Notes under the pieces: model-generated
Database searches by the model: none
What the model saw: only the letters and a program-made list of their open reading frames with translations
What the model was told of the DNA's origin: nothing
Program-made: the position numbers and the translations under genes
Shown here: positions 3,682-5,416 of the stretch, one piece after another
Layout: every line of letters begins with the position of its first letter
How positions within the stretch are numbered: the first letter of the stretch is position 1
IMG/VR virus record: IMGVR_UViG_3300031840_000290
Coordinates: 1-23,830 of that record
Reading direction: 5' to 3' (one strand)
Origin: a virus
DNA length: 23,830 nt

Positions 3682-3753
3682 CTATATTGTTATTATTAAT
3701 ACTATCATTACAAATAAAATTACTACGCAACTATAAAAATTTATATCTGTCAT
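3682..3753 (-). CDS. 23-aa hydrophobic membrane microprotein
   Basis: I translated this very short frame directly: MTDINFYSC followed by VVILFVMIVLIITI and a stop. After a short polar N-terminus, essentially every residue is aliphatic or aromatic, so it would form one membrane-spanning helix. The ATG overlaps the stop of the upstream gene as TAATG, and the stop falls just before the ribosome binding site of the next gene, so it fills the gap exactly. It lacks a strong ribosome binding site of its own and would depend on coupling. It could be a membrane-active or toxin-like peptide, but a role cannot be read from sequence, and chance translation remains possible. Confidence 0.5.
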   Translation of the reverse strand: MTDINFYSCVVILFVMIVLIITI

Positions 3754-4225: not shown

Positions 4226-4390
4226 TTATTTACTCGCTTTCTGTTTTTGTTTATGTTTTGTTATTGTTTTTTCTTTGCTGTTTTGTATTGCAATTATTCT
4301 ATGAAAAAAAGGGTGCGAACAGTCGCACCTCACACCCTCTTTTTTGGCTTGTTCATTAACTTTTTTAATGATCTTATCTTGCCAATTCAT
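4226..4390 (-). CDS. Questionable small basic protein containing a terminator-like hairpin
   Basis: If translated from ATG 4390 (GAGGA nearby) it gives 54 residues beginning MNWQDKIIKKVNEQAKKEG and ending in a lysine/glutamine-rich tail. Upstream Mets at 4408 and 4399 are in frame but lie deeper inside the previous gene. A strong hairpin plus T-run in the direction of transcription sits in the middle of the frame (encoding VRCDCSHPFF), and the tail has low complexity. Either a real gene carries an attenuator, or this is a noncoding spacer between two leftward transcripts. It begins inside the end of the upstream gene. Confidence 0.35.
   Translation of the reverse strand: MNWQDKIIKKVNEQAKKEGVRCDCSHPFFHRIIAIQNSKEKTITKHKQKQKASK
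4304..4329 (-). terminator. Intrinsic terminator-like hairpin in the leftward block
   Basis: On the minus strand GGTGCGA (4329-4323), loop CTGT and TCGCACC (4318-4312) form a perfect 7-bp GC-rich stem. It is followed by C and seven T residues (4310-4304). An overlapping alternative stem pairs AGGGTG with CACCCT, and the plus strand also ends in T-rich sequence (4338-4345), so it may work in both directions. It lies within the doubtful frame at 4226-4390. Confidence 0.6.
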
Positions 4391-4556
4391 TTTCCTCATC
4401 TTCCTCATCTTCGTTTAAATTGTTTGCGTCAAGATAATCATCATAACCTACATTATAGGCAATCGGATCGCTATCTTTTAAGAGTTTGGAAAAATTCCAA
4501 ATTCCTGTGTCATAAAGCTCATCTAACCAATCATTGTATTGATCTTCATATTTCAT
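4374..4556 (-). CDS. Small phage protein with WLDELYDTG...LLKDSDPIAYNVGYDDYLD pattern
   Basis: The 60 residues begin MKYEDQYNDWLDELYDTG and contain KLLKDSDPIAYNVGYDDYLD before an acidic tail (NEDEEDEENELAR). The 'LKe.DPiAY..Gy.Dyld' signature recurs in a family of short tailed-phage proteins, recognised from memory and without a known function. AGAAAGGAT provides the ribosome binding site. It is a soluble acidic protein, possibly a small host-interaction factor (inference). Confidence 0.7.
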   Translation of the reverse strand: MKYEDQYNDWLDELYDTGIWNFSKLLKDSDPIAYNVGYDDYLDANNLNEDEEDEENELAR

Positions 4557-4574: not shown

Positions 4575-4832
4575 TTATATGTATTTTTTGTCTATGTTTT
4601 TGTTCTCAAGAAGATTAACAAAATCTTTATATCTCATACGATATTCTCTGTTGCTTCCTGTTAATTCCTCTATTCTGTTTAAGTGTTTCGCTGTAGTTAC
4701 TGACCATACATTCTCGCAAACATAAGTATCAACAGGCGTCTTAATTGCTACTGTTGTATTATAGCTATAAAATACTTGATTGTTTCCTATTGTTTGAGTG
4801 TATAGGCTTTTTTGGTCTATTTGTGTTTTCAT
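4575..4832 (-). CDS. Small phage protein with SYNTtVAI...WSVTTAKHLNRIEE pattern
   Basis: The 85 residues begin MKTQIDQKSLYTQTIGNNQ. A beta-rich FYSYNTTVAIKTP segment (about 21-33) leads to VCENVWSVTTAKHLNRIEEL (38-57) and a basic helical tail. The 'SYnT.VA....W.sVTT.KHlN' signature belongs to a widespread short accessory family of marine and enteric phages whose function is not known to me. AAAGGGAAAACA lies upstream of the ATG. The 77 bases before it hold two plus-strand TTGAC boxes nearby and no other gene. Confidence 0.72.
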   Translation of the reverse strand: MKTQIDQKSLYTQTIGNNQVFYSYNTTVAIKTPVDTYVCENVWSVTTAKHLNRIEELTGSNREYRMRYKDFVNLLENKNIDKKYI

Positions 4833-4909
4833 TGTTTTCCCTTTGTTATTTGTTTTCTATTGTTATAATTGTTGTTATTTTATTTTTATAGTTGACAAGA
4901 TGTCGCATA

Positions 4910-4996
4910 TTAGATTGACCATAAATGCAAGATATAAAGCATTAATGAAGTTAAAAAGGTTGTAGTAAATACAAAGAATAATATTTTATAGATCAT
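4910..4996 (-). CDS. 28-aa hydrophobic membrane microprotein
   Basis: I translated this short frame directly: MIYKILFFVFTTTFLTSL followed by MLYILHLWSI. It has one basic residue near the N-terminus and is otherwise aliphatic/aromatic, enough for a single transmembrane helix, probably with the N-terminus inside. AAAGGA lies seven bases before the ATG, an optimal ribosome binding site, and the frame overlaps the end of the upstream gene by 11 bases. This context favours real translation. Small single-helix phage peptides can act as holin-like, superinfection-exclusion or host-toxic factors; none can be chosen here. Confidence 0.55.
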   Translation of the reverse strand: MIYKILFFVFTTTFLTSLMLYILHLWSI

Positions 4997-5213
4997 TATT
5001 GTTTCCTTTTTTTTTGTTTATGTACTCATTAGCTTTGTTAATAACTTTTTTAGCTTGAGTTTTGTTTAAATGATGAACAGATTGAATAGCTTCTATGTTA
5101 TTTATGAAATCATACTCATTTTCAAAATATCCATTTAATACAGAAGCGATTGCAAAAGATATATTTTTATCATCATCAAAAGAATATATCCAATGTTCTT
5201 TGTTATTGTTCAT
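4986..5213 (-). CDS. Hypothetical small protein, first gene of leftward block
   Basis: The 75-residue product begins MNNNKEHWIYSFDDDKNISF, has a helical middle (IASVLNGYFENEYDFINNI) and a basic C-terminal helix (NKTQAKKVINKANEYINKKK) ending in Asn. AAAGGAAAC precedes the ATG. As the first gene leftward of the control region it should be the most directly expressed of the block. No domain recognised. Confidence 0.65.
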   Translation of the reverse strand: MNNNKEHWIYSFDDDKNISFAIASVLNGYFENEYDFINNIEAIQSVHHLNKTQAKKVINKANEYINKKKGNNNDL

Positions 5214-5387
5214 TTTTGTTTCCTTTGTTTTGTTTGTTTCGTTTAATTTAATATATTGGTTAATTAATGTAAGTTGACAAATTGACGCAGTTTAAAGATT
5301 AGAGAAGTTATAAAAGTTTAAAATGATCCTATTCTTATATTGACGCGTCAGTTTCTTTTTATGCGTCATGACAATCGGTCAACAATA

Positions 5388-5416
5388 TTGACCTATATAT
5401 TTCCGATAATTAATAG
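5388..5416 (+). promoter_or_regulatory. Candidate rightward promoter
   Basis: TTGACC (5388-5393) and TAATAG (5411-5416) are separated by 17 bases, the right distance for a sigma-70-type promoter. The -35 box lies in the right arm of the GGTCAA/TTGACC inverted repeat, so binding of a regulator there would block it. The -10 match is imperfect. Confidence 0.3.

Follow-up and report, generated by a model that had tools for sequence, protein, structure and literature searches.

A hydrophobic 28-aa microprotein in an apparently exchangeable membrane-peptide slot of HTVC010P-type pelagiphages

Superinfection-exclusion membrane proteins of phages, such as T4 Imm and Sp, HK97 gp15, P22 SieA and lactococcal Sie2009, are at least 70 aa long, while lambda CIII and the small early proteins of T7 are early host-takeover peptides. 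The microproteins described here resemble the exclusion proteins as small, predicted membrane proteins made by phages that are diverse, exchanged and apparently dispensable for growth; they differ in that they are shorter (20-54 aa), have no sequence match to those proteins and are carried by phages without known lysogeny genes. With lambda CIII and the T7 proteins they share tiny size and a place in a small accessory gene block that varies between relatives, but there is no homology and their slot is fixed beside a repeated element. Small phage membrane proteins as such are a known kind; no description of such a slot, holding at least six dissimilar and mostly unannotated microproteins beside a repeated element, was found in the open-licence literature.

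The window (the whole stretch of DNA analysed, 23,830 bases, equal to the entire IMG/VR virus record) is part (23.8 kb) of the genome of an HTVC010P-type pelagiphage. Such phages infect SAR11 bacteria and are among the ocean's most abundant viruses, and most of their early genes are without a function, the smallest often being unannotated. The closest cultured matches were HTVC024P and Greip (both at ~86% identity over ~72%), followed in the comparison by HTVC100P and HTVC035P. Since the matched cultured relatives have genomes of 34.6-36.1 kb (~35 kb, against 24 kb for the window), ~11 kb is missing from the window; in complete relatives this stretch carries the M15 endolysin and DNA-metabolism genes. 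The features lie in a leftward block that in relatives has the same orientation as nuclease, annealing protein and DnaA-like genes:

5274-5289, minus strand: element E1, TGCGTCAATTTGTCAA, 76 nt before the start of the 75-aa gene, oriented as E2 (54 blocks aligned)
4986-5213, minus strand: upstream gene of 75 aa, overlapping the microprotein gene by 11 nt; varies between phages
5004-5009, minus strand: AAAGGA, Shine-Dalgarno-like, within the 75-aa gene (read from the sequence; not constant in family F1)
4910-4996, minus strand: predicted membrane microprotein of 28 aa, family F1, C-terminus LY-x-LHLWSI (29 distinct coding sequences with synonymous codon changes)
4892-4907, minus strand: element E2, TGCGACATCTTGTCAA, 2 nt past the microprotein stop and 75 nt before the start of the 85-aa gene
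4575-4832, minus strand: downstream gene of 85 aa, beyond E2; varies between phages (weak match to phrog_5643, of unknown function)
3682-3753, minus strand: second conserved single-helix microprotein of 23 aa, MTDINFYSCVVILFVMIVLIITI (more than 30 loci; no E2 after it)

The preliminary description had proposed a hydrophobic membrane microprotein gene at 4910-4996, and both the coordinates and the character of the product held. The ORF begins with ATG and encodes MIYKILFFVFTTTFLTSLMLYILHLWSI. Its best 17-residue Kyte-Doolittle mean was 1.89, typical of a single membrane helix, and membrane insertion was favourable by a rough score. Both measures indicate at least one membrane-spanning helix, from which a cell-envelope location is predicted. 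At the level of known families the peptide was isolated: a tblastn search of phage records with the peptide found no match at E<=10, and slot peptides searched against Pfam, PHROGs and PADLOC profiles gave no significant match, hence no homology to a known exclusion family.

Conservation, proposed earlier as a check, was assessed by gathering relatives via terL and via a degenerate DNA pattern of the C-terminus, with tblastn on the relatives' loci. The resulting family F1 comprised 29 distinct coding sequences, with products 28, 31, 32 or 33 aa long, across independent contexts, including unannotated copies in HTVC035P (654-749) and HTVC204P (281-367); five matches of the degenerate pattern in genome contigs came from unrelated bacteria, had no matching hydrophobic ORF and were discarded as chance. 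The last nine residues (LY-x-LHLWSI) were almost invariant, and although the degenerate pattern presets part of this end, ten terL-selected blocks showed the same end free of that bias. The codons differed among members: leucine was encoded by CTT, CTA or TTA and by TTG, CTT or TTA, histidine by CAT or CAC, serine by TCA, TCT, TCG, AGC or AGT, and isoleucine by ATC, ATT or ATA. Because no single base change turns a TCN serine codon into an AGY one, these switches are most simply explained by selection on the peptide. The helix portion drifted among hydrophobic residues (median dN/dS ~0.5 over the last 25 codons). Moreover, the gene was kept in many contigs with different neighbouring genes, and its conservation is therefore far beyond chance. 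Judging from these codon patterns, the ORF is a real protein-coding gene whose tiny, very hydrophobic product is under selection.

The start of the gene was less constant than its end. The overlap with the previous gene was as first described, whereas the "optimal" ribosome binding site was so only in part: AAAGGA does stand 7 nt before the ATG in the window, but at this spacing it occurred only where the 75-aa gene lies upstream in this form (the window and block L088). At other F1 loci the start lay from -23 to +11 nt relative to the stop of differing upstream genes, with or without a Shine-Dalgarno-like sequence, and the homology began at the ATG, with many different genes upstream. As far as these comparisons go, AAAGGA belongs to the 75-aa gene and not to F1. 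The 5' end of the 28-aa form, ATGATNTATAA, carries stops in both other frames, so any gene running into the F1 start terminates there; F1 is likely translated by coupling to whichever gene precedes it. A role for the 75-aa gene as the peptide's dedicated partner was ruled out, as upstream genes vary freely.

E1, which stands ahead of the block's first gene, and E2 share a repeated form (TGCG(A/T)CAATTTGTCAA-like) in fixed orientation ~75 nt before start codons, and are likely operators or parts of promoters. Sigma-70-like sites were no more numerous than in shuffles in a promoter scan, so a promoter role for E1 and E2 is one we infer. The elements resemble mycobacteriophage stoperators, as described in PMC9283540 and PMC6550527, in being short asymmetric intergenic repeats in fixed orientation to transcription; this is a resemblance only, and they differ from those stoperators in occurring mainly as two copies at the block start and in having no known lysogeny repressor.

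E2 was also found in relatives without F1, and there too the adjoining ORF was tiny and hydrophobic. A short hydrophobic ORF adjoined E2 in 36 of the 41 distinct terL-selected E2-bearing blocks, against a background of 2.2% (425/19,586) at other positions on the same strand of the same blocks. The occupants in the terL-selected blocks were i) F1 (LHLWSI; 10 blocks), ii) F2 (MFTRLFKKIDGLMQN..., 38-39 aa; 8 blocks), iii) F6 (MIKKILN..., 37 aa; 6 blocks), iv) F3 (MEQMLYELF..., 25 aa; 5 blocks), v) F4 (MEYFYLALVLAIIITLIFGK, 20 aa; 5 blocks) and vi) F5 (MKTILNITLILL..., 54 aa; 2 blocks). Cultured isolates cover three of the types: HTVC035P and HTVC204P (F1), HTVC100P (F3) and Greip (F4). In every family tested dN was below dS (dN/dS of 0.25 for F2, 0.05 for F3, 0.06 for F4 and 0.16 for F6). 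By the rough score F1 and F4 are clearly predicted to insert into the membrane, insertion of F2, F3, F5 and F6 is marginal or doubtful, and the predicted topologies differed among families. The six families have no evident similarity to one another, though peptides this short cannot prove that they are unrelated. Read across blocks, the order is the first gene or genes, then the putative membrane microprotein, then E2, with the slot filled by at least six apparently dissimilar hydrophobic microproteins.

The type of peptide changed readily. On the terL DNA tree (42 phages) slot type changed at least 13 times, the minimum for six types being five, and three phages with near-identical terL (L004, L005 and L008) nevertheless carried F3, F1 and F2 respectively. 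An upstream family of 51-54-aa hydrophobic proteins paired with all six slot types. Slot types also recombine with the genes that precede them. The peptide was absent from three blocks (L043-L045) and is therefore dispensable; in L043 and L045 a non-membrane gene of the 57-aa type, which precedes the peptide elsewhere, adjoined E2 directly. One block (L052) held F3-like and F4-like ORFs in tandem. HTVC010P and Lederberg lack E2, yet close to the corresponding position had F6-like and F2-like ORFs, and no E2-slot peptide was recognised in HTVC024P, HTVC203P, HTVC034P or Skadi. On this comparative evidence, the membrane microprotein is an accessory module that can be exchanged.

The explanation that we favour, at a little under even chances, is a non-essential, rapidly exchanged accessory protein that would act at the inner membrane in host takeover or superinfection exclusion. 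The direction of the block, shared with the replication genes and opposite to that of the virion and lysis genes, suggests that it is expressed early or in the middle of infection (no open transcriptome of an HTVC010P-type phage was found). The peptide would form a single helix within the inner membrane, for F1 with a predicted N-in/C-out topology given its basic N-terminus, and the fixed C-terminus LY-x-LHLWSI might bind a host inner-membrane protein or a membrane site that serves incoming phage DNA. Early in infection, such binding could shut out superinfecting competitors or adjust the activity of a host membrane enzyme. That the peptide is small, dispensable and quickly replaced from one close relative to the next fits an arms-race tool, and superinfection exclusion, one of the options first raised for this peptide, appears compatible with the data. 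On the other hand, the tandem types in L052 weaken the idea of mutually exclusive specificities, coexisting types count against exclusion as the sole role, and the marginal insertion scores of F2, F3 and F6, together with the differing topologies, count against a membrane accessory. Selection seems to keep a membrane microprotein without fixing which one, a testable pointer to the handling of the host membrane or to dealings between phages.

Under a broader and rather doubtful proposal, to which we give about one chance in four, lytic pelagiphages would have a dedicated site for exchangeable cassettes, delimited by a repeated operator-like element and stocked with unrelated membrane peptides of 20-54 aa for competition or exclusion; if this is true, no smaller phage exclusion proteins would be known. 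More radically, almost any helix might do, its co-translational insertion being what tethers the early transcript and the phage DNA to the membrane.

The strongest competitor of the accessory-protein reading, itself unlikely but to be taken seriously, holds that the peptide takes no part in exclusion and is a takeover peptide regulating one specific host membrane enzyme (a protease, transporter or division protein). Its size and single-helix build are like those of small bacterial membrane regulators and of early phage inhibitors, lambda CIII among them, and a C-terminus that does not vary points to a single binding partner; the quick exchange of one peptide for a dissimilar one, however, would need several targets or several solutions to one.

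A leader or arrest peptide, in which translation of the helix and the fixed C-terminus controls the gene after E2, would likewise account for the strict conservation of the last residues. That the most conserved residues directly precede a stop adjoining a conserved, regulatory-looking element speaks for this reading, which we nevertheless consider improbable: the conserved C-terminal motif upstream of a gene holds within F1, but the other families end differently, so that six dissimilar peptides with different C-termini occupy the same place; the downstream genes differ among loci; the ORF with its leader folded no better than shuffles (z 0.31); and an RNA family search gave no Rfam match.

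Still less probable is the holin-like role raised as one option in the preliminary description, whereby the peptide, acting as a holin or pinholin, would oligomerise in the inner membrane and trigger lysis with the endolysin. The slot peptide is like holins and pinholins in consisting of one short hydrophobic helix, holins being diverse in sequence and replaceable, and no holin is annotated in phages of this group. It had been remarked that none is recognisable in the window, which is explained by the window being only 24 of ~35 kb. The search for a holin/endolysin pair elsewhere in the genome, also suggested there, was carried out in complete relatives. In all six the M15 endolysin (backed by Pfam and PHROGs) lay away from the slot and had adjacent membrane-protein candidates of its own. 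In HTVC100P, HTVC035P, Greip, Lederberg and HTVC010P its upstream neighbour was a 64-87-aa protein with a C-terminal helix and its downstream neighbour a protein of ~125 aa that includes a strong hydrophobic segment, while in several of these five a short N-anchored protein followed further on; the holin-like and spanin-like labels of these neighbours are weak. This set lies in the late region in the direction opposite to the slot block, which is co-oriented with replication genes, and unlike a holin the slot peptide is neither beside the endolysin, within the lysis cassette nor in the late region and is missing from some relatives. A holin-like role is thus disfavoured.

That the ORF is no gene but a by-product of conserved DNA around E2 has a negligible chance: the DNA is AT-rich, the flanking element is itself conserved and close members are nearly identical in DNA, but synonymous variation with a conserved protein end, in-frame length variants, low dN/dS in the other slot families and the serine codon-class switches, which rule out conservation of the DNA only, stand against it.

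The 23-aa microprotein at 3682-3753 is most likely the other single-helix peptide from which a shared membrane theme of the leftward block had been suggested. Its dN/dS was 0.35 over 19 coding sequences, it is unannotated in HTVC100P (1201-1272) and HTVC035P (2178-2249), and its order relative to an 82-aa gene differed between phages. The theme was borne out, more strongly than the window by itself could show, by these two conserved single-helix peptides, by the further slot families in relatives and by the frequent hydrophobic 51-54-aa neighbour.

A further unclassified small membrane protein, strongly hydrophobic, of 51-55 aa and ending in CFLLFALDVARNFIN, was common in the block:

683-839 of the leftward block of L007: 51-55-aa hydrophobic protein
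182-349, HTVC100P (L084): the same protein
261-422, HTVC035P (L085): the same protein
1946-2101, Skadi-3 (L127): the same protein

Within the leftward block a clear intrinsic-terminator-like hairpin (GGTGCGACTGTTCGCACC, then a T-run) was seen at 4312-4329 (minus strand), inside or at the end of a 60-aa gene (4226-4408). Where the leftward block and the terL side diverge, the intervening DNA contained a cluster of palindromic TTGAC/TGACGCGTCA motifs (5340-5395 of the window) and a terminator-like hairpin (5377-5393).
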